This document shows positions 5,655 through 30,199 of a stretch of 64,000 nucleotides of DNA, in pieces. Source of the stretch: Neptunomonas sp. (GTDB lineage: Bacteria; Pseudomonadota; Gammaproteobacteria; Pseudomonadales; Balneatricaceae); NCBI RefSeq assembly GCF_016744175.1, contig NZ_JADGEV010000004.1, positions 1 through 64,000 on the forward strand, given 5' to 3'. How positions within the stretch are numbered: the stretch's first letter is position 1; each line of letters opens with the position of its first letter. The translations under genes were made by a program, and so were the position numbers. Below the pieces are notes generated by a model. The model ran no database searches, was not told the DNA's origin, and saw nothing but the letters and a program-made list of their open reading frames with translations.

Positions 5655-6493
5655 TGACAATATTTACCCCAACATCAACACACCCTCTTCTTGTTTTTGG
5701 AGGGGCTTATAGTAATGTTCAAGCCACTAAAGCATTAATTGATGAAGCTCAGCGGTTAAGCATTCCGCCAAGTAATATTCTGTGCACAGGAGACCTTGTT
5801 GCTTATTGCGCCTCACCTCAAGAAACAATAGATTTAATTAAAAACTGGAAAATTGCTGTGGTTATGGGGAACTGCGAAGAGTCATTCGGCAATGATGCAG
5901 ACGATTGTGGCTGTGGCTTTGAGGAGGGGACTGCTTGTGATTTACTCTCAGAAGGCTGGTTTAACTTTTCCAAGCCCCGAATTAGCGTAGCGAATAAACA
6001 GTGGATGAAAGCGCTGCCTCGTTCTATTGAGTTTAATTTTTCAGGGTTTCGTTGCGAGGCAATACACGGTGGAGTTGATCAGATTAATCAGTTCATCTAC
6101 ACCTCTGATGATAAGGAAATCGTTCAGCAATTAGATAAAGCGGGTGTTGATATCGTCTTTGGTGGTCATTGCGGAATCCCATTTGGTAAGCGCTCGCAAA
6201 ACAAAACGTGGCTAAATGCCGGAGTTATTGGGATGCCCGCTAACGATGCTACTCAAGACGGCTGGTTTATGCTGGTGACATCTGCACAAGATGGCTTGAA
6301 CGTTGAGTGGCGCCGCTTGCCATATGACGCACAGTCAACCGCCGATACTATGCAAAGAGAAGGCTTAAATACTGGCTATAAAGATGCTTTGCTGACAGGT
6401 ATTTGGCCAAGCATGGATGTGTTACCAGATAAAGAGCGAGCTGCTTCCGGGCAACGATTGAGTGTAGAAAGTCTTTATTTGTATCGTAAATAG
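5654..6493 (+). CDS. calcineurin-like metallophosphoesterase family protein
   Basis: 279-aa protein of the YfcE/Ap4A-hydrolase-like superfamily. Motif II CTGDLVAYCASP and the later GGHCGIPFG and ALPRSIEF regions are clear. Motif I, normally DxHGN, reads GGAYSN, and GNHD reads GNCEES; a Cys-rich insert DDCGCGFEEGTACD follows. To my knowledge these changes are shared by a conserved subfamily rather than being decay. Metal binding must therefore differ from the classic dinuclear site. Translationally coupled to the SSS transporter. Confidence 0.75.
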   Translation: MTIFTPTSTHPLLVFGGAYSNVQATKALIDEAQRLSIPPSNILCTGDLVAYCASPQETIDLIKNWKIAVVMGNCEESFGNDADDCGCGFEEGTACDLLSEGWFNFSKPRISVANKQWMKALPRSIEFNFSGFRCEAIHGGVDQINQFIYTSDDKEIVQQLDKAGVDIVFGGHCGIPFGKRSQNKTWLNAGVIGMPANDATQDGWFMLVTSAQDGLNVEWRRLPYDAQSTADTMQREGLNTGYKDALLTGIWPSMDVLPDKERAASGQRLSVESLYLYRK

Positions 6494-6559
6494 ATAAATA
6501 GGGCATGCCTAGTCAAGCACCCCAGAAAAAGCACATACCTTTCAGGGTGTTTAATTTTT

Positions 6560-7627
6560 TTAACGTGGCATAAAGACTGATAAATCTTCTATTTTGCCGC
6601 TTAGCTCACTTTTATAGCCTGCAAGGTTCTGCACTTTATTATTGAATAGATCACTTTTTATGATCTCTATGAATTGGCTCACAGCGGCCTTTTGAAGGCT
6701 TTTTTGGTGACAAACAAACACATAATCTTCGCTACATATAGGAATAAATCCTAGCCCAAATTGATGCGCTGCTTGCTCAACACCAAAGCCCACATCAGCC
6801 ATACCTGCAGCAATATACGCAGCCACCGCTGAATGAGTGAACTCGCGATTGTTATAACCTTGGATATTTTCGGCAGAAATGCCCTCATTAGTAATAAGTT
6901 GATCCAATAATGCACGTGTGCCTGAGTCTTCTTGACGATTAATAAACCTTATATCTTTGTGTTTTAAATCGTGTATTGAGTGGATGTTTAAGGGATTGTC
7001 TTTTTTGATCATTAACCCTTGCTGGCGTGATATAAAACGAATGATTTTGTGAGAGCGGGGCTTTAAAAGTTGCTGATAGCGTTCAATAAGAGAGGGGATA
7101 ACAACACCGGCAGGCATATGAAATCCTGCAATATCGCAAGCATCACGGTTGAGTGCAGTCAGCGCCTCTAAGGGGCTGCTGTATTGCAGGTCAAGCTGTA
7201 AACCGGCACAAACATCAGGCAAAAGGGCTACGGCATAACCGTGGCTTGCTTGGATACGCAGCAGGGGAGTGAGATTAACGAGTACTTTTTGTATTTCTAC
7301 ATTGAGTTCTGATGCCAGGTTAGCCATTTGTGGCTGAAAACGAGCCATCACGCGCTGCTCGGCCCACAGCAGTTTTTCTCCTAAGGGAGTCAGTGTTGCT
7401 CCTCTGCCTTTTTCGAGTTTAACCAAGGGAGCCCCAAAAAAGTCAGCCCATTTATTGAGCATATTCCAAGCATGACGGTAAGAAATACATGCAGACTCAG
7501 CAGCGGCTGTCAGTTTTTTGTGTAAGTGAATGGCTGCCAATAAACGAAATAGTTGTGGATCTAATGTATTTCCAGCCTCATCACGGAATGCCCAAGTAGG
7601 GTCTATATGTATTCTTTTACCGGTCAT
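6560..7627 (-). CDS. ModE-type HTH regulator with periplasmic-binding-protein-like domain
   Basis: 355 aa. Residues about 20-110 form a LysR/ModE-type winged helix (LTAAAESACISYRHAWNMLNKW, then a wing ending LTPLGEKLL). Residues about 130-340 resemble a type 2 periplasmic binding domain as found in molybdate/tungstate-responsive regulators (INRQEDSGTRALLDQLI, IAAGMADVGFGVEQAA). It is divergent from the formate dehydrogenase operon across a 311-bp intergenic region, so it most likely regulates that operon, sensing formate, molybdate or both. The same arrangement is known for FdsR-like regulators. Confidence 0.8.
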   Translation of the reverse strand: MTGKRIHIDPTWAFRDEAGNTLDPQLFRLLAAIHLHKKLTAAAESACISYRHAWNMLNKWADFFGAPLVKLEKGRGATLTPLGEKLLWAEQRVMARFQPQMANLASELNVEIQKVLVNLTPLLRIQASHGYAVALLPDVCAGLQLDLQYSSPLEALTALNRDACDIAGFHMPAGVVIPSLIERYQQLLKPRSHKIIRFISRQQGLMIKKDNPLNIHSIHDLKHKDIRFINRQEDSGTRALLDQLITNEGISAENIQGYNNREFTHSAVAAYIAAGMADVGFGVEQAAHQFGLGFIPICSEDYVFVCHQKSLQKAAVSQFIEIIKSDLFNNKVQNLAGYKSELSGKIEDLSVFMPR

Positions 7628-18480: not shown

Positions 18481-18942
18481 TTATTGCGTATTTAGAGTTA
18501 GCCAAGCATGATCAGCTTCTTTTTTATAAGCTTGCCAATCACCACTTAACCACCGTTGCCGACCTCTTTCAGCGTAAAAAAGATGTAGGTTCTCGCCAAA
18601 GAACTCCCATACAGTGCCGTCGGTAGAGATTAATCCTTCACCTAAGCTCAAAGCATTAGAACAGAAACCGTTATAGAGAGGGCGGTAACGTTCAGGGTCA
18701 GCTGCAAATTTATCTGCTGACGCTTGAGAGGCAAATAGCCACTCAGCATTATTCCACTTAACTACAAAGCGTTTTTTACCAATGACTTCTTTATGTTGGG
18801 TGCGTACGTCATCAGAATGGTATTCAACAGTATCGTGCCCGCCAATCGCTTTGGATCCCCAGTAACTTTTACTAACGGGCTCTGCAGCAATACTCCCAAA
18901 ACTAGCAAACATTAATGCTAGAGCCATTAAATATTTTATCAT
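18481..18942 (-). CDS. exported YHS-domain protein (153 aa)
   Basis: Signal peptide MIKYLMALALMFASFGSIAA, then a YHS-like domain: GGHDTVEYHSDD, WLFASQASADKFAADPERYRPLYNGFCSNAL. YHS domains are short metal-associated modules; this one keeps a single Cys in NGFCSNAL. It is a paralogue of the protein at 25561-26025, and both carry the pattern xxAVxGxDTVxY...PExYxPxYxGxC. Likely periplasmic. Function unknown; possibly metal handling near the P460 gene. Confidence 0.8.
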   Translation of the reverse strand: MIKYLMALALMFASFGSIAAEPVSKSYWGSKAIGGHDTVEYHSDDVRTQHKEVIGKKRFVVKWNNAEWLFASQASADKFAADPERYRPLYNGFCSNALSLGEGLISTDGTVWEFFGENLHLFYAERGRQRWLSGDWQAYKKEADHAWLTLNTQ

Positions 18943-19072
18943 CCTGTTTATCCTTAATTGGTTCTTTGACTCAAGCGCATAGTATGTAACGTGAGTGGCT
19001 TTTTGGCCCTTATTTCACTTTAAAGCCAGTTAAGACATTGGCCTATTAGCGAAATAAGGTAATGTGTCACTC

Positions 19073-19594
19073 TTAATAATGTTTTCTAAGGAAGTCTTCG
19101 TTAGTGAAGACAAAATCATTTTGTGTGGCTATAGAGTGGCAGCCGCTACAAAAAGCATTCGTTTCTTCTAATTTTCCATTATAACCTGCAACCCAGCCCC
19201 AGTTTTTAGCATCAGGCGTCGCGCCATCTTGTAGTTTAACCATAATTGTTAAATCTGTCGGTTTTTGTGCTTTAAAGGCGGCAAGGTTATCAAATTGCTC
19301 TTTTACAATAACGGTACCTGCTGGGTAGTTATAAGGTGCGCTACCTAGAATAACGGCTTTACCAATATCATTAACATAGACATCTCGGTAGCCATCTCGC
19401 CCCTTATGGACGCCGCTGACAAAACCAGTAGGGTCTCCGGTTCCGGTTCTGTTTTCTGTAATTTTTGTCCAGTTTTTGAAATTTGCCCACCGACTGTCGG
19501 TGTTACCTGAATAATCTGGTGCGGAAGCGCAAGCAACAATTAAGGTGCTGATGGATAGAACTAACCCTGCTTTGAGGTAGGTACTGGGTTTCAT
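19073..19594 (-). CDS. cytochrome P460 family lipoprotein
   Basis: 173 aa from ATG 19594, which is preceded by aggggaat; the ORF-track start adds 21 residues before the signal. Lipoprotein signal with Cys in LIVACASAP. The C-terminal heme-binding motif is FCSGCH, with the family's conserved WGWVAGYNGKLEETNAFCSGCH block. Cytochrome P460 proteins oxidise hydroxylamine, with NO or N2O as product, through a cross-linked c-type heme. A Lys in TIVVKE or MVKL could serve the crosslink. Exact activity unproven. Confidence 0.85.
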   Translation of the reverse strand: MKPSTYLKAGLVLSISTLIVACASAPDYSGNTDSRWANFKNWTKITENRTGTGDPTGFVSGVHKGRDGYRDVYVNDIGKAVILGSAPYNYPAGTVIVKEQFDNLAAFKAQKPTDLTIMVKLQDGATPDAKNWGWVAGYNGKLEETNAFCSGCHSIATQNDFVFTNEDFLRKHY

Positions 19595-19823
19595 ATTATT
19601 ATTCCCCTGTTGTTTTGTCTGTCTAAATCCGTGCTCTGTATAAGTATAGAGCCTCAAAAATAATTATTAAGGTGAATATTAATACTCTTTTATGAAATGA
19701 AACTGAAAACCAGTGAAAAACAGGTTTGGCTTTCGGGTGAATTAGTAGGGTTTGCGAGGTTTTATATTTTTTTTATGCTTGTATAATCGCAGCTCAATTT
19801 ATGGACGAAATATAAGGAAGTAT

Positions 19824-20627: not shown

Positions 20628-20660
20628 AATAAGCCCTATGATAAATTTAGGGCTTATTTT
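20628..20660. terminator. bidirectional intrinsic terminator
   Basis: aataagcccta/tagggcttatt with a T-tract on the right and A/T-rich sequence on the left; it ends the seven-gene minus-strand operon and backs up the previous hairpin. Confidence 0.7.
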
Positions 20661-20678
20661 CTGACTGAACATGACTCT

Positions 20679-21416
20679 CTAGTGAGTACTTCTTAACGCT
20701 ACTTTTATGTTATGCGCATTTTCCTGTTCTGTGTGCGACATTAACAGGCAGGGGGAGCCGTTTTGATAATCAAAACTTGCGTATTCGTTGGTCACTAAAA
20801 TGTGACTGAAGCTAACCGTTTTTGCATCACGCCGGTGCATGCAAACTGATTGATGCCCTTTTGTGGGGTGATGTCCTTGGTGGTATTCAATGTGTTGTTG
20901 TGCAGTATTCATTGAAGTTGATGATGTGTACCTATTAATACGTGTAGCTGAAACTTTCTCAAACTCAACAGAAGAGGAGGTTAGCGGGCTACTAACGTTT
21001 AACGTTAAAAGTTTTTTACCGTCCCATTGATAGCGTTTAATGTCGGCCCCATCAAATGACCGTTCAAAAGCAAGAATTGTAAAGGGGGCGTAGCAATTAA
21101 GATTGAGACATTCTATTTCTGTAGTGAATGCACTAATGGTATTTAAGTAGGAGAGTGATTTCAATAGATGCCCACGACTGCTCAAAGGCCCTCTTGGTAT
21201 ATCACCTTGGTAAAAGTTTAATAAACAAAGGCTAAAACCCCACTCATTTACGGAAATCCAGCTACCGTCCCCATCGGGGTCTAGCGGCATTAGCGCGGTA
21301 ACATTGTTTGTCTCATAATGACTTGGAGGGAGTGCCTTGCTACGGCTTCGTTGTTCATCACGGTTAAAAAAAAGATGATAACCATTCTGATTGATTAGCC
21401 AGCTAACGGTGCACAC
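20679..21416 (-). CDS. NRDE (TANGO2-like) family protein
   Basis: 245 aa. Begins MCTVSWL with Cys2, followed by LFFNRDEQRSRSKALPP, the NRDE signature of the family, and GGSWIS-like DGDGSWISVNEWGFSLCLLN. The family has an Ntn-hydrolase-like appearance with Cys2 as possible nucleophile after Met removal; human TANGO2 is linked to heme or lipid handling, but bacterial roles are unknown. GTG start overlaps the upstream DinB-like stop (TAGTG). Last gene of the ATP-grasp operon. Confidence 0.85.
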   Translation of the reverse strand: MCTVSWLINQNGYHLFFNRDEQRSRSKALPPSHYETNNVTALMPLDPDGDGSWISVNEWGFSLCLLNFYQGDIPRGPLSSRGHLLKSLSYLNTISAFTTEIECLNLNCYAPFTILAFERSFDGADIKRYQWDGKKLLTLNVSSPLTSSSVEFEKVSATRINRYTSSTSMNTAQQHIEYHQGHHPTKGHQSVCMHRRDAKTVSFSHILVTNEYASFDYQNGSPCLLMSHTEQENAHNIKVALRSTH

Positions 21417-21934
21417 TAAGACTGGGCCTGCTCACGGTTGTAGGTTGCCGTAGCGGGTGCAACACCATAATGGTTACCTATGCTGTACCCCTGTACTTTT
21501 GCAATCGTCACCATTAAAGCTAAATGATGAATAGTATGGTTGGATGCAAAAAATAGTTCTCTTCCAAATGAGGTTTCTAGTAACGAACTGTGTTGTTCAG
21601 AGATAGCTATTTCTGTCTTAATTTTAACATGTCGGTTTATTGTTTCGGGGCTTAAGGCAACAAGCCATGCTCTTATATCATTCAGTGTACATAAGGCACT
21701 ATGTCGATTTGTTTCTACCAAGCTACCTCGTAGACGGATGTCATAATCTACAACATCATCTTCCATGTTTCTGATAAGCGCATGATAAATATCTAGGATG
21801 TGTCTAAGATGCTGACCAATACTACTTTCAAATAAATTCGATGAGTTATCTTGATAAACGCTATCATTAATACTCTCAATAAAGTCATTAAGCTGATCAA
21901 ATATTTCTATACTGCTATCAATTACTTTCTGCAT
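21416..21934 (-). CDS. DinB-like four-helix protein
   Basis: 172 aa, helical throughout, with His residues spaced as in the DinB/YfiT superfamily: SIGQHLRHILDIYHAL near residue 40 and ASNHTIHHLALMVTIA near residue 130, a likely three-His metal site. DinB-fold proteins include thiol-dependent transferases and hydrolases. It overlaps the NRDE gene by one base and lies 42 bases after the MFS gene. Enzyme role in the operon is open. Confidence 0.75.
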   Translation of the reverse strand: MQKVIDSSIEIFDQLNDFIESINDSVYQDNSSNLFESSIGQHLRHILDIYHALIRNMEDDVVDYDIRLRGSLVETNRHSALCTLNDIRAWLVALSPETINRHVKIKTEIAISEQHSSLLETSFGRELFFASNHTIHHLALMVTIAKVQGYSIGNHYGVAPATATYNREQAQS

Positions 21935-21976
21935 GAAATTCTACCGTTAAACGAGTCTTTATAAATTAAGAGGGCG

Positions 21977-23242
21977 TTAAGTTTTGGATGTTCTTAATGA
22001 TGCATTAGCTACAGCACTGGTGCTAATGCTGGACTCCTTAGGGGCTGTATAAACCATATAGATCAATGCGATAGGGGTTAAAACTAAATACAAGGTTGCT
22101 AATGAGGACTGAATGTCTGAGAAGTAAGAAGCAAGCAGTGCTGCAACCGAATAAAATATAACAATGCCTGTTTGAGATAGGTAGCTCTTCGCTAGCAAGT
22201 AGTTTAAAGGGCGTTGCTCTCTTGCATGGTCAAAAAAACGTTTGTTAAAGCTTAACCGGAAGAATGTCGTTAAAAATGCGATTAATAAGATGGCAGGGTA
22301 GATCATGTGATTTGGTAATGACGGGTCTAATAAGCTGCGCAGCCACCAAGATAAAGCATAAAAAATAACGGCAAATGTATACACTTTGTTACGGTCAAGG
22401 CTATCAATTTTGTTTTTTAATACATAGAAAATAACGGACAACAAAACGGTAAGTGTAACAATAATAACGCCTAATTCTTTAACGTTTTCCTGAGAAATCA
22501 AAAATAGAGAGACTACCCAAAAATAACTTTCAAGGAAAAGAAATACGCCGTCAAGGTAAAACACAACGGAGGAGTTGTGAGAGTCCTTGAAGCGAAAGAG
22601 GGATGTTTTTTTTGATTCTGTCGTGCCTATTTTTACAGGCAGAACTTGGCTAATGGTAAAGAAAGTGCTCATTCGGCTTGGCTGAAAAAACCAGATAAGG
22701 CCTGCTAACGATATAATAGAACTGACTAGCCATAACGAATGCTTTAGATTGTCTTCTAGCATAAAGGCGCCGACTAAAATCCCTAGTTTCAAGACAACAA
22801 CCACTAAAATTTGGAAGTTACCAAATTGCTTTCCTGTATCGTTTGTGGGTGAGGTCTGGTTGTTACGTTTGTTTGAATCCGATGTCATGGTACTGAACAG
22901 CATTCTTTGTGTTGTCCAGTAGAAGCAGTTATATACACCATTAAATAATGCAGCAATGGCCCACGAAATAGGCGAGTCACTAAAGAGTAAAACGCCTACA
23001 AGAAAGACTTCGCTAATAAAAGATAAAGCAACAATCCAGCGCCACTGAGACTGATTAAATAGAGCTTCCCATATTTTCAGTGAAACAATAAACCCGAATC
23101 CGGTGAGAGCAATAAACAACGCAATTCCTTCAATTGATACACCTTGCTTCAGTAGCAGCACGGGAATAAAGAAGGGCAGTAATCCAATCAGAAATGAGTG
23201 GACGCCTGCAAACTGAAAAAAGCTCGAAGATACGGTTTTCAT
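21977..23242 (-). CDS. MFS transporter
   Basis: 421 aa with about 11-12 hydrophobic helices and an extended central loop (SDSNKRNNQTSPTNDTGKQ between halves). No substrate motif recognised. Start overlaps the stop of the upstream ATP-grasp gene by one base (TAATG). Placed directly behind two ATP-grasp ligases, it is a natural exporter for their product, which is an inference. Confidence 0.8.
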   Translation of the reverse strand: MKTVSSSFFQFAGVHSFLIGLLPFFIPVLLLKQGVSIEGIALFIALTGFGFIVSLKIWEALFNQSQWRWIVALSFISEVFLVGVLLFSDSPISWAIAALFNGVYNCFYWTTQRMLFSTMTSDSNKRNNQTSPTNDTGKQFGNFQILVVVVLKLGILVGAFMLEDNLKHSLWLVSSIISLAGLIWFFQPSRMSTFFTISQVLPVKIGTTESKKTSLFRFKDSHNSSVVFYLDGVFLFLESYFWVVSLFLISQENVKELGVIIVTLTVLLSVIFYVLKNKIDSLDRNKVYTFAVIFYALSWWLRSLLDPSLPNHMIYPAILLIAFLTTFFRLSFNKRFFDHAREQRPLNYLLAKSYLSQTGIVIFYSVAALLASYFSDIQSSLATLYLVLTPIALIYMVYTAPKESSISTSAVANASLRTSKT

Positions 23243-24150
23243 TAGAAAATATCTGCGTTGCTGATTTCTATTTGATCGAGCTTACTAAAGTATGGGCTTA
23301 AATCTTCTTTTTTACCGTAGCGTGGATAATCATGCATTTTCAAATAAGGACGTGAGTTTACTTCTAAAAAAATACATTTTTGATCTTGATAAGAATGATT
23401 GATCCCTTTTTCGAAAATAACATCGATGCCCAGTATGTTGGCATCGAACATATTTAATACATCTAAAAAAAGCTGTTTGTTGTCTTCTGGAATAGTCTCT
23501 TTATCAATAGTTCGGACGGTGCCGCCTGGCGCTAATGATATTCGGTAAAAAAGGACAACATCTTTGCCTTCTTCTGGAATGCTTTCTAGCGTGTATTTAC
23601 TTTTCTTTATATAGTTAATGGTTTGCTCATTCTTTTCAATGGGATAGATGCAAGGGTGCAGCTCCATTGCTTTTCGAATAGCATTTTCTTCATCAATAAG
23701 TTCGCTAACTGTGTGTATGCCGTCACCAGTAATTGTTGGCGGGTAACGCTCAATTACTGACATGAGTTCCCCTTTAATGGCTACTACACGGTAGTTATGC
23801 CCCTTTAAGTACTGCTCCACTACCGTTGTAGGCCACCAAATTTTTGCTAGAAAAATAGCCTTCCATAGTTCTTTGAAATTGTTGATAGGAAAGTAGCTGC
23901 CGCGAGAATAACCACTAACATTGGGCTTGATGACTAAAGGAAAGCCATGTTCTTTGGCAAAACGATGTGCTGCCATTGGGTTTAAGAATATTTGTCCTTT
24001 GGCATGAGGAACATTACCTTGACTAAACACAGCACGAGCTTGTTCTTTAGAGCGGCAGCTTTTTCTTACTTCTAAATTGTTATAGCTGCTGCAGCCGTTC
24101 ATATAGCGCTGACTTATCCAGCTATAAATTATCTTTTTTATATTTTGCAT
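23242..24150 (-). CDS. ATP-grasp ligase 1 (cyanophycin synthetase/GshF-like)
   Basis: 302 aa. Clear ATP-grasp core: FPLVIKPNVSGYSRGSYF (ATP-binding Lys), TTVVEQYLKGHNYRVVAIKGELMSVIERYPPTITGDGIHTV, typical of cyanophycin synthetase and GshAB ATP-grasp domains, and the metal-binding end NILGIDVIF...IFLEVNSRPYLKMHDYP. Such enzymes make amide bonds through acyl-phosphates. It lacks the other domains of CphA or GshF, so it is a stand-alone ligase. The substrate is unknown. Confidence 0.85.
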   Translation of the reverse strand: MQNIKKIIYSWISQRYMNGCSSYNNLEVRKSCRSKEQARAVFSQGNVPHAKGQIFLNPMAAHRFAKEHGFPLVIKPNVSGYSRGSYFPINNFKELWKAIFLAKIWWPTTVVEQYLKGHNYRVVAIKGELMSVIERYPPTITGDGIHTVSELIDEENAIRKAMELHPCIYPIEKNEQTINYIKKSKYTLESIPEEGKDVVLFYRISLAPGGTVRTIDKETIPEDNKQLFLDVLNMFDANILGIDVIFEKGINHSYQDQKCIFLEVNSRPYLKMHDYPRYGKKEDLSPYFSKLDQIEISNADIF

Positions 24151-24173
24151 TTGGTGTGCTCGTCTTAATCAAT

Positions 24174-24986
24174 TCACTTGGTGCGTTGTATGAAACCTAA
24201 TTTTTTAAAGAATAAAAAAGGCTCATTTTGTTCTGCCGGTATAGTTCTTGTTACTTTTGCCAGCAACCAAGTACATTGAGTAGCTAGGCTTAGTTTCTTC
24301 TTTAGCGATGTGTTTTTAGTAAGCAACACAAGTGGCATAGGAACAAACAGGTTTATTTCGATAACTTTAAAATCACCTTCAATCAGTTTTGTCAGCGAAT
24401 CAGCTCGAACGCCAAAGCGTGAAATTCTAAAGTCACCAATTGTTCTCAGGTTCTCCCAGAGAGCATTGCTACTTTCTTTGCTAAGGAGCTTGGTTACATC
24501 TTGATACTCAGTTTGCTTATTATAAATGCCGTTTATTGGGAAGTTATCACTGCTGTGGTTTATTACCTGTGTAACTGACAGCATTGCATAACGGTCAGAT
24601 GCTATATCTGAGGGTATAATGAAAACCTCAAATTCAATTTTTCCTTTAGCGGCTTCCTGAATGAGATAATGAGACTGCCCCGTTGCTCTTTGGCAACGAA
24701 TATCATCTAGTTCGTTACGGTTATCTGCTCTTAGAATTCCCTTAGAGTTTTGCCCCCATTCAGGTTTAACAAATACGGGGTAGGATTCTGGCTGTTTATC
24801 GCCAGAATCCAGCCATTGGTCTAAGCGCCATTCTATGGGTATCAGATCATTAATATCCTGCTTGGAATATATGCCTTTGCCTTTATTAAAATAACTAGCG
24901 TTTAACTGGAAGTAATGCCAGGGCATTACTCTCAAACGAAGGCACGAGACTATATAAGAAGTCACCAATAGAATTCTAATCATCAT
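24174..24986 (-). CDS. ATP-grasp ligase 2
   Basis: 270 aa with divergent ATP-grasp core: YPVFVKPEWGQNSKGI, YLIQEAAKGKIEFEVFII, and FRISRFGVRADSL...GDFKVIEINLFVPMPLVLL with the E-x-N metal motif. Shorter and less canonical than its neighbour. The N-terminal about 20 residues are hydrophobic (IRILLVTSYIVSCLRL) and may anchor it to the membrane, or the start may be at M21. Gap to ligase 1 is 23 bases. Two different ligases imply at least two bond-forming steps. Confidence 0.75.
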   Translation of the reverse strand: MMIRILLVTSYIVSCLRLRVMPWHYFQLNASYFNKGKGIYSKQDINDLIPIEWRLDQWLDSGDKQPESYPVFVKPEWGQNSKGILRADNRNELDDIRCQRATGQSHYLIQEAAKGKIEFEVFIIPSDIASDRYAMLSVTQVINHSSDNFPINGIYNKQTEYQDVTKLLSKESSNALWENLRTIGDFRISRFGVRADSLTKLIEGDFKVIEINLFVPMPLVLLTKNTSLKKKLSLATQCTWLLAKVTRTIPAEQNEPFLFFKKLGFIQRTK

Positions 24987-24999
24987 AATTATCTAAGAC

Positions 25000-25521
25000 T
25001 TACAGAGTGATGTTGCGGTTAGTATTGCTAGTACGCCAATGCGCAAAGTTTACAACGGCCATGGCCAATCCTAAAATAAGGATAGAAACAGCAGCATAGA
25101 ACAGTGATCCATGGTCACTAACGCCATTATGCAACACTTCTATCCCCAGTGGTGTTGCTAAGTGAAAAAAAGCTGCTCCGCTCATAATCCCAGCGGCAAG
25201 CACTCCTCCTATACTGTGAATCAATGCTCTTTCTGGCGCTTTGCCTATGGCGTTTAACTTTTTGAGGATAAAGAACACAATAGGAAGTAATAAAAAAATT
25301 GAAACTATTAGTTCAGCACTACCAACAGCATAAGCGCCGTATTCTGCAAACCAAAGTCCTAATCCATTTGATAGGGTATTACTCATCCACGCACCGATAG
25401 TTGAAAATATGTGCTGAGTGTCTGGATGGCCGGAAAACTTATATGGCAAAGAGCTCAAAAATACTTTGCATGTCCAAGCAACAACTACCCAGCTAAAAAT
25501 TGTAATAATTCGAGATTTCAT
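25000..25521 (-). CDS. DoxX-like membrane protein
   Basis: 173 aa with four predicted transmembrane helices. The first extracytoplasmic loop KVFLSSLPYKFSGHPDTQHIFSTIGAWM resembles DoxX/quinone-reducing membrane proteins. Such proteins often pair with oxidoreductases or metal/thiol proteins. Located 39 bases after the YHS gene and 13 before ligase 2, in the same operon. Confidence 0.7.
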   Translation of the reverse strand: MKSRIITIFSWVVVAWTCKVFLSSLPYKFSGHPDTQHIFSTIGAWMSNTLSNGLGLWFAEYGAYAVGSAELIVSIFLLLPIVFFILKKLNAIGKAPERALIHSIGGVLAAGIMSGAAFFHLATPLGIEVLHNGVSDHGSLFYAAVSILILGLAMAVVNFAHWRTSNTNRNITL

Positions 25522-25560
25522 ACCGTATCCTTAATGTTATTATTGGCTGTATTAATGAAG

Positions 25561-26025
25561 TTACTTAATGACTTTTGGCCAGTTTTTGTCAGCAGAACTA
25601 ATAAAGCCTTCTTTGTCTTTTACCCATTTTGACTGTACTTCGGCATCGTAATTAAGATATAGCTTGCCTTTATGAACAGTCCACTGCAGCGGATCACCCT
25701 TTGCAGTATCGTTATTGGCTACAGCCCATGCGCAGTAACCACCATACTGAGGCGCATACTTTTCAGGGTTACCTTTGAATGCCGCTAGATTATCGGCATT
25801 TTTAAAACGCCATTGAGCGCCTTTGTATTCTGTTGTGAAACGCTTGCTACCCTCGACTGCTTTATTTTCAGTGAAGTAAGCAACGGTGTCATAACCTGCA
25901 ACAGCAAGGTCGCTGAAGTAAGACGTGTAGATAGGGGACTTTGCACTTGCATGTAAAGACATAACCATCAACATTGCTGCGATAATTGAACCCCATGCTT
26001 TTTTATATGAAAGTAGGTTGGTCAT
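25561..26025 (-). CDS. exported YHS-domain protein, first gene of the ATP-grasp operon
   Basis: 154 aa. Signal peptide ends in MSLHASA. Mature domain: AVAGYDTVAYFTENKAVEGSKRF, WRFKNADNLAAFKGNPEKYAPQYGGYCAWAV. This is the YHS-family pattern, often found with metal-dependent or DoxX proteins. Paralogue of 18481-18942. Leads the seven-gene minus-strand operon; the promoter should be in 26026-26100. Confidence 0.85.
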   Translation of the reverse strand: MTNLLSYKKAWGSIIAAMLMVMSLHASAKSPIYTSYFSDLAVAGYDTVAYFTENKAVEGSKRFTTEYKGAQWRFKNADNLAAFKGNPEKYAPQYGGYCAWAVANNDTAKGDPLQWTVHKGKLYLNYDAEVQSKWVKDKEGFISSADKNWPKVIK

Positions 26026-26357
26026 TTGTGTGCCCTCGAAGTCTATAAGCTTGTCATGTAAGTTTTCTTTACAACCAATCGCCTATCTTGGCTGTAAAAA
26101 GTAAGCCAACTATATATTTTGAATCTGAAATCAACCTGAAAAAAATAGCTATTTTAATCCATTTGGTAAGCTTAGGCCTATGAATAGTTTGTTGTTTTAG
26201 TGAATAACAATACTCATATTATAGGTGTTGTTGGTTGCGTCAAAGGAAGCCGCTAAAAGAAGAGGGGAGTTGATGGTTTGTTGTTTGTGATGGCCAAAAC
26301 TCTATATATGCTATTTTGTAGACCTTTAAACGATAAAAAAAGACATTATATGGAGGT

Positions 26358-26369
26358 ATTGTCGACAAT
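26358..26369. promoter_or_regulatory. palindromic operator candidate 1 of prpE
   Basis: ATTGTCGACAAT is a perfect 12-bp palindrome of the kind bound by GntR-family (FCD) regulators. 214 bp before the prpE start. Confidence 0.5.
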
Positions 26370-26495
26370 CCTGTTTTTTGTTGATTATCAAACCCCATGA
26401 AAAAGTAGATTTTTTACGTAAAATAGCCATATTCGCCTTATGTCGTAGTTAAATCCGTGTTTTTTTTAGTTAAAGTAGATGGATCTTGTAGGCCG

Positions 26496-26507
26496 ACTGT
26501 CAACAAT
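26496..26507. promoter_or_regulatory. operator candidate 2 of prpE
   Basis: ACTGTCAACAAT matches the first site at 10 of 12 positions and lies 65 bp before the prpE start. Confidence 0.4.
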
Positions 26508-26571
26508 AACTATAACGGCTCACATTGACGTAGTCCTGAAAATTAACTTATAAGCACAAAGGGCCCGCGCT

Positions 26572-29503: not shown

Positions 29504-30199
29504 TTACAGCGTCGAGGACAGCTTGTTGACGCCTGTTATTGATCCATTCCATACCATTTCGTAATGCGTAGCTTGTTGTATCGATGTTACATGTGATGGC
29601 GTCATTAAGGCCCAGCATATGGCGCTTTGTCGCCTGACGGAGTGATACCTGATTCCCATGCTTTTGTTATGCTTGATTGCATGGCCTAAAACACGAGCTT
29701 CGCTGTAATCGGTTGGAGAATAGATGGGATTAGTAGATGAAAGAGTCAGTCCGTCTAGGATGTCTACTTCATCAAAATGGCAAATTAATCCACGAAAAAC
29801 AAAACGTTCATAGTTTAGCTCTGGAACTCTGCTCCAATAGGCATGCTGATGATGTTTAACCTCAGCGATGGCGGTTTCCATACTATCGGCTAAATACAGT
29901 ATTCCAAATGCTCCGTTACTAAAACGAGAGCCGTCCGGATTTACATGGGTAAACGGTGCTGTAGCGTATGAACACCCAGGAATGCCGAATGGGATTTCAG
30001 TGCGGGGGATTAACTGTAAGTCACCTACTTCATTCTTAAGACGTGGGTTAGTTAATGTTTGCAGTGCATAGAGGCTATTGAATTCATTAGCGTCGGCAAC
30101 ATCATCAAATAGACTAATAGGAGGAAACTTTGAGTTAATTAACCGGTAGCTTTTAATTTTTTTGCTGGGTAAAGCGGGCAGTTGTTCAATGTTTACCAT
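29504..30199 (-). CDS. RES-domain toxin
   Basis: 231 aa. RES-domain proteins of TA modules degrade or modify NAD and resemble ADP-ribosyltransferases. The three signature residues are visible: Arg in KSYRLINSK, Glu in METAIAEVKHHQ and Ser in VRRQSAICWAL. It overlaps the antitoxin gene by 7 bases and lies downstream, as is usual. Intact by length. Confidence 0.88.
   Translation of the reverse strand: MVNIEQLPALPSKKIKSYRLINSKFPPISLFDDVADANEFNSLYALQTLTNPRLKNEVGDLQLIPRTEIPFGIPGCSYATAPFTHVNPDGSRFSNGAFGILYLADSMETAIAEVKHHQHAYWSRVPELNYERFVFRGLICHFDEVDILDGLTLSSTNPIYSPTDYSEARVLGHAIKHNKSMGIRYHSVRRQSAICWALMTPSHVTSIQQATHYEMVWNGSITGVNKLSSTL

Follow-up and report, generated by a model that had tools for sequence, protein, structure and literature searches.

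Bacilysin-type clusters encode an ATP-grasp dipeptide ligase, BacD, together with an exporter of the major facilitator superfamily (MFS), BacE, graspetide clusters can also contain two ATP-grasp ligases plus a transporter, and NAGGN, whose synthetase has an ATP-grasp part, is an osmolyte-type amide. Marine animals contain taurine and its precursor hypotaurine as abundant organic sulfur osmolytes, and bacterial enzymes that build either compound (henceforth ‘(hypo)taurine’) into amides are, to our knowledge, hardly known. In animals, a GADL1-like decarboxylase or cysteine sulfinate decarboxylase (CSAD) is combined with an ATP-grasp ligase, carnosine synthase (PMC7367687). Here we describe a run of seven minus-strand genes in a 64,000-nucleotide stretch of Neptunomonas sp. 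(contig NZ_JADGEV010000004.1, positions 1 to 64,000; henceforth ‘the window’) that encodes two small ATP-grasp ligases, ATPg2 and ATPg1, followed by an MFS-like transporter. The two-ligase unit is a real, conserved and previously undescribed unit of marine bacteria. On the evidence of sequence comparison we propose, with a probability of about 0.5, that it would be an operon for making and exporting a small amide, of which (hypo)taurine is most likely one building block.

Family assignments of the window proteins were checked against Pfam and NCBIfam profiles. ATPg1 resembles CphA and GshF in that it aligns to the ATP-grasp domain of each, with the catalytic residues conserved: it matches positions 211-462 of 862 in the cyanophycin synthetase model TIGR02068 (1.2e-46) and only positions 488-744 of 756 in the GshF model, CphA (7wac, 9e-32) is its relative in the PDB, and residues K75, D243, E263, N265 and R267 are invariant in nine orthologues. 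In contrast to both enzymes, ATPg1 lacks the N-terminal CphA, Mur-ligase-like and GshA-type parts and is at most ~30% identical to them. Its length (302 against ~860 amino acids) and its score of 159 bits (cut-off 850) rule out CphA, and the absence of the GshA-type part with 100 bits (cut-off 425) rules out GshF; the initial annotation had rightly described ligases without these fused domains. By profile and invariant residues, ATPg1 is thus assigned to the ATP-grasp superfamily. The ATP-grasp part of NAGGN synthetase is a second-tier match to ATPg1 (TIGR03103, 4.9e-21), but, unlike NAGGN synthetase clusters, the window unit has neither a GNAT fusion nor an asparagine-synthetase-like gene. 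For ATPg2, the structure prediction that had been suggested as a check gave a model (pLDDT 90.5) with a Ddl-type ATP-grasp fold (Foldseek to Ddl, E 4.9e-8, probability 1.00). Residues K74, E118, E120, R190, E210 and N212 are invariant among its members, and position 196, the site expected for a Ddl metal ligand, is D in 52 members and N in 21. The sequence match is weak (20.1 bits against 245.65 for TIGR01205; 20.7-22.1 against 24 for PF07478), the match begins inside ATPg2, at model position 141, and the N-terminus is a hydrophobic helix. Lacking the N-terminal Ddl domain, lying below the family cut-offs and showing 14-19% identity with a TM-score of ~0.5, ATPg2 is not a Ddl proper; its predicted fold and invariant residues place it in the ATP-grasp superfamily. 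An apparent ATPg2-ATPg1 fusion of 528 amino acids in locus L095 was discarded, as its N-terminal part is unlike ATPg2 and seems to be a wrong-frame reading. Like bacilysin-type clusters, the locus encodes an ATP-grasp ligase beside a putative MFS exporter; unlike them, by gene content, it shows no anticapsin-type genes and has two ligases and other accessories.

To define the unit we fetched 80 public loci, from Neptunomonas, Amphritea, Colwellia, Psychromonas, Moritella, Endozoicomonas, Granulosicoccus, SAR324 and a Gracilibacterium, and counted genes in the 59 with enough flank. ATPg2 was present in 57 of these, the MFS gene in 56, the gene for a four-helix membrane protein (4-TM) in 47, YHS in 45, DinB in 29 and NRDE in 17. 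The core ATPg2-ATPg1-MFS is kept together in 56-57 of the 59 loci and its flanking genes vary between genera, which makes it a unit rather than an inherited neighbourhood. The initial annotation had made conservation of all seven genes together the test of its reading: this holds for the near-universal core and frequently for YHS and 4-TM, but not for the lineage-specific DinB and NRDE, and its ‘seven-gene operon’, complete in 16 of the 59 loci, describes only one branch. DinB and NRDE lie together beside the cluster, on the opposite strand, in Moritella and one Psychromonas and therefore behave as a separate module; both genes are optional accessories. In whole genomes, ATPg1 identity drops sharply from orthologues (at least 49%) to CphA/GshF domains (~30% or less), and across clades the protein is 49-60% identical with the core gene order unchanged. 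The cluster has a patchy distribution within genera and orders: ATPg1 is carried by 9 of 195 genomes in the window’s order (identity at least 55%), by 11 of 369 in its class and, in a draw across the phylum, by 2 of 399, which both belong to the window’s class. Plasmid matches to ATPg1 were exclusively of the CphA type, at 30% identity or less. In the Gracilibacteria bin (L105:8130-12073), the 4-TM, ATPg2, ATPg1 and MFS genes form open frames only under code 25, in which TGA stands for glycine. The first three of these genes contain 15 TGA codons, five of which coincide with a Gly shared by every other member or by all except one, and on this ground the cluster is argued to belong to a code-25 organism and not to be a contaminant. 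With several of these codons on invariant glycines, the cluster has likely been transferred between marine bacteria and an organism of a candidate phylum.

A connection to cysteine metabolism, not foreseen by the initial annotation, came from relatives in the most divergent branch of the ATPg1 tree. In four SAR324 genomes the operon reads decarboxylase-cupin-ATPg2-ATPg1-MFS (L097, L104, L159 and L137 + L083, the last being one operon split across two contigs), and YHS or flavoprotein genes lie upstream of such operons. The gammaproteobacterium G590 has the order 4-TM-decarboxylase-cupin-ATPg2-ATPg1, followed by a VTT-like protein, and G510 has decarboxylase-ATPg2-ATPg1-MFS, with the CSAD-like gene alone and no dioxygenase in the operon. 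Genomes G456 and G524, from families of the larger clade, encode a decarboxylase-dioxygenase pair on a contig other than that of the cluster. The decarboxylase is a group II pyridoxal-phosphate enzyme of family PF00282, nearest to GADL1, CSAD and GAD, and the best PDB relatives of the L104 protein are GADL1 and CSAD. The cupin is a cysteine dioxygenase (CDO) homologue, above the cut-off of PF05995 (CDO_I) in L097 and below it in L104. An Arg/Gln position separates cysteine dioxygenases from 3-mercaptopropionate dioxygenases (PMC8050391). All seven cluster-associated CDOs have HGH and, at this position, an Arg that aligns with Gln63 of 3-mercaptopropionate dioxygenase; the Ser-His-Tyr triad is complete in five operon-linked or SAR324 CDOs and reads T-H-Y and T-H-F in two unlinked ones. 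By these residues the cupins of the seven relatives are classed as Arg-type cysteine dioxygenases. Of the eight complete cases, seven pair the decarboxylase with such a CDO, and together the two enzymes would yield hypotaurine from cysteine. The divergent-branch clusters parallel, in their logic, the animal arrangement, in which a GADL1-like decarboxylase feeds an ATP-grasp ligase, but differ from it in that a cysteine dioxygenase precedes and that two small ligases and a transporter are present.

Decarboxylase and ATPg1 also co-occur at the level of whole genomes. Among 52 SAR324 genomes, the decarboxylase (E<=1e-60) and ATPg1 are found in exactly the same four. Among 369 gammaproteobacterial genomes, the decarboxylase (E<=1e-90) is found in five, of which four carry ATPg1, with the pair unlinked in two; the fifth (G605) is 71% complete, belongs to the genus of G510 and has its decarboxylase at a contig end, with the same flanking genes as in G510. 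The hypergeometric chance of these overlaps is 3.7e-6 for SAR324 and 2.1e-6 for the gammaproteobacteria, or 0.0016 once the operon-linked gammaproteobacteria are removed, values that treat genomes as independent, ignore relatedness and serve as a guide only. CSAD-like proteins of N. japonica and Amphritea, encoded away from the cluster and 36-37% identical to the SAR324 one, were excluded as support. Their genes lie near LysR and a HisD-like dehydrogenase (L138:3180-4586 + 5895-7202, L139:2776-4170 + 5694-7016), which is possibly the sulfopropanediol dehydrogenase HpsN.

Taken by themselves, two minimal ATP-grasp ligases with an exporter are probably best read as machinery for the synthesis and export of a small amide. 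In such a mechanism ATPg1 and ATPg2 would activate a carboxylate as an acyl phosphate for coupling to an amine, with the MFS protein predicted to carry the amide product across the membrane. In the most divergent branch, the cysteine dioxygenase and the cysteine-sulfinate-type decarboxylase, whether their genes lie inside or outside the operon, would convert cysteine to hypotaurine; since hypotaurine has no carboxylate, it would be the ligated amine. Lineages without CSAD and CDO, the window’s genome included, would need to obtain (hypo)taurine from the marine environment or from hosts, or else employ a different amine; as the window’s genome lacks CSAD, the substrate there would be acquired or different. 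The lineage-specific DinB and NRDE proteins may modify or hydrolyse the product.

Several observations, besides the disregard of relatedness in the chance values, weigh against the (hypo)taurine reading. In the ATPg1 tree, which is rooted by midpoint only, the six operon-linked cases belong to a single divergent clade. No PF00282 decarboxylase is encoded in the window’s genome, which is 98% complete and whose only CDO_I protein is of the Gln type, and CSAD near the cluster is absent from most carriers in the window’s clade. In addition, GAD1 scores first for the L158 decarboxylase, which makes its substrate less certain, and the G590 operon has no MFS gene. The lack of CSAD in the window’s genome and the confinement of CSAD-linked clusters to one clade, together with accessory genes that vary between clades, favour an alternative in which the ligase-exporter machinery still produces a small peptide or amide but the substrate of the window’s clade is not (hypo)taurine and CSAD and CDO mark the divergent branch only. 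However, the identity and shared core order of ATPg1 across clades suggest conserved chemistry, and the unlinked CSAD-CDO pairs of G456 and G524 occur in families of the larger clade; we consider this alternative unlikely, if the least so of those weighed here.

Other readings concern the chemistry itself. The decarboxylase could act on aspartate and the ligases form beta-alanyl peptides, as do animal GADL1 and carnosine synthase: the best solved relative, GADL1, may take aspartate besides cysteine sulfinate, and carnosine synthase appears as an ATP-grasp enzyme in the reference list of the same paper (PMC7367687). An Arg-type CDO would be needless for aspartate decarboxylation, however, and its presence beside the decarboxylase in nearly all complete cases makes beta-alanine a very unlikely building block. 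Action of the ligases on a peptidoglycan peptide or amino lipid, with the membrane proteins as carriers, would suit the Ddl-type fold and initial hydrophobic helix of ATPg2 and the neighbouring genes for membrane or exported proteins, but the neighbourhood comparison found no Mur, lipid or polysaccharide gene recurring beside the cluster, and its patchy distribution also speaks against such a role, which we regard as improbable. Hardly credible, finally, is a graspetide system, a ribosomally synthesized and post-translationally modified peptide (RiPP) pathway in which the ligases would crosslink a precursor peptide before its export: two ligases and a transporter would fit, but a survey of 79 loci found no small open reading frame (ORF) in or beside the cluster conserved beyond close relatives, hence no conserved precursor gene, and by sequence and fold ATPg1 is of the CphA/GshF type and ATPg2 of the Ddl type. 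For the preferred reading, a (hypo)taurine amide, the link is firm only as an association in the divergent branch, and for the window we infer it.

In the window, the seven ORFs form a single minus-strand run from 26025 to 20679 (Table 1), at the coordinates first assigned to them, in the 5'->3' order YHS, 4-TM, ATPg2, ATPg1, MFS, DinB and NRDE. The intergenic gaps are 39, 13, 23, -1, 42 and -1 bases, in agreement with the earlier description of overlaps or gaps of at most 42 bases, and the one base shared by the ATPg1 stop and the MFS start is likewise shared in many relatives’ loci. The inverted repeat, between NRDE and a convergent M48 peptidase gene, likely marks the 3' end of the operon; a consensus terminator scan did not list it, as its 9-base loop exceeds the loop limit of the scan. 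Upstream of YHS, a gap (26026-26571) is followed by a divergent acetyl-CoA-synthetase-like gene.

Table 1. Features of the two-ligase locus, with coordinates in the window.
Feature	Position	Strand	Evidence
YHS-domain protein, 154 aa	25561..26025	-	NF041384 and PF04945 matches
Four-helix membrane protein (4-TM; earlier ‘DoxX-like’), 173 aa	25000..25521	-	37-member alignment, structure model
ATPg2, minimal ATP-grasp ligase, predicted Ddl-type fold, 270 aa	24174..24986	-	Structure model and Foldseek
ATPg1, stand-alone ATP-grasp ligase, CphA/GshF type, 302 aa	23242..24150	-	TIGR02068, PDB CphA 7wac
MFS-like transporter, 421 aa	21977..23242	-	Weak PF07690 match
DinB-superfamily protein, 172 aa, accessory	21416..21934	-	PF05163, PF12867
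TANGO2/NRDE protein, 245 aa, GTG start, accessory	20679..21416	-	PF05742
11-bp perfect inverted repeat, 9-base loop, 3' of NRDE	20628..20658	-	Read directly from sequence

The family calls of the initial annotation for YHS (163.6 bits against a cut-off of 70 for NF041384; 30.6 against 30.3 for PF04945), DinB (32.0 against 23 for PF05163; 26.0 against 24.8 for PF12867) and NRDE (28.7 against 22.6 for PF05742) were borne out by scores above the profile cut-offs. The N-terminal segment of the YHS protein is hydrophobic and signal-like, the protein’s single conserved Cys, C98, is found in at least 97% of family members, and in a 12-member alignment of NRDE proteins Cys2 (in the N-terminal MCT) and the NRDE motif are invariant. 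The name ‘DoxX-like’ had to be given up, as none of 37 4-TM members matches a DoxX profile of Pfam at E<=0.01; the PDB holds no match to the protein at E<=0.001. Its model is confident, helical and of membrane type (pLDDT 91.8), the motifs SLPYKF..HPDT and FFHL.TPLG are invariant in the 37 members, and we treat it on this basis as an unnamed family. The suggestion that YHS and ‘DoxX’ form a redox or metal part found no direct support, and any roles of the YHS and 4-TM proteins in the unit are putative. For the transporter, the PF07690 match spans most of the protein, but its 18.5 bits lie below the cut-off of 33.4.

Some neighbouring features deserve mention. At 18481-19657, between the M48 peptidase gene and metH, the same strand carries genes for another YHS-domain protein and for a cytochrome P460-like protein, and in N. 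japonica (L026) such genes come directly after the cluster. A pyridine nucleotide-disulphide oxidoreductase is encoded inside the cluster in Nitrincolaceae/Osedax-symbiont loci and one SAR324 genome (L079:6493-8655, where it is fused to a VTT membrane domain of the DedA type, and L137:2412-3887), and in Colwellia L034 and L038 two ORFs stand in place of one MFS gene, through a frameshift, a sequencing error or decay. Two divergent carriers (L105:12092-13753, L156:11230-12780) have FMN-binding glutamate synthase family look-alikes downstream of the cluster, which may point to glutamate as the other building block or reflect chance. Extras of single lineages (metallophosphatase, VTT-flavoprotein, pyruvate dehydrogenase and lipopolysaccharide-assembly genes), like the retropepsin and AMP-nucleosidase-like genes of Granulosicoccus, were judged mostly lineage neighbours. 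Elsewhere in the window, 29504-30199 encodes a 231-aa protein resembling a RES-domain toxin, with a 133-aa gene adjoining, possibly a RES/Xre toxin-antitoxin pair (by eye only).

Paper searches found no description of the two-ligase/YHS/4-TM gene set, in line with the initial annotation, which knew of no such system, and full-text literature searches found no ATP-grasp ligases acting on taurine or hypotaurine. It is possible, though we hold it only tentatively and at somewhat less than even odds, that marine gammaproteobacteria, SAR324 and a Gracilibacterium possess a new pathway from cysteine via hypotaurine to an exported, peptide-like (hypo)taurine amide. The carriers include deep-sea, whale-worm, coral and sponge bacteria, among them cultured type strains such as Neptunomonas japonica, and the gene context supplies a candidate substrate for two uncharacterised ligase families.

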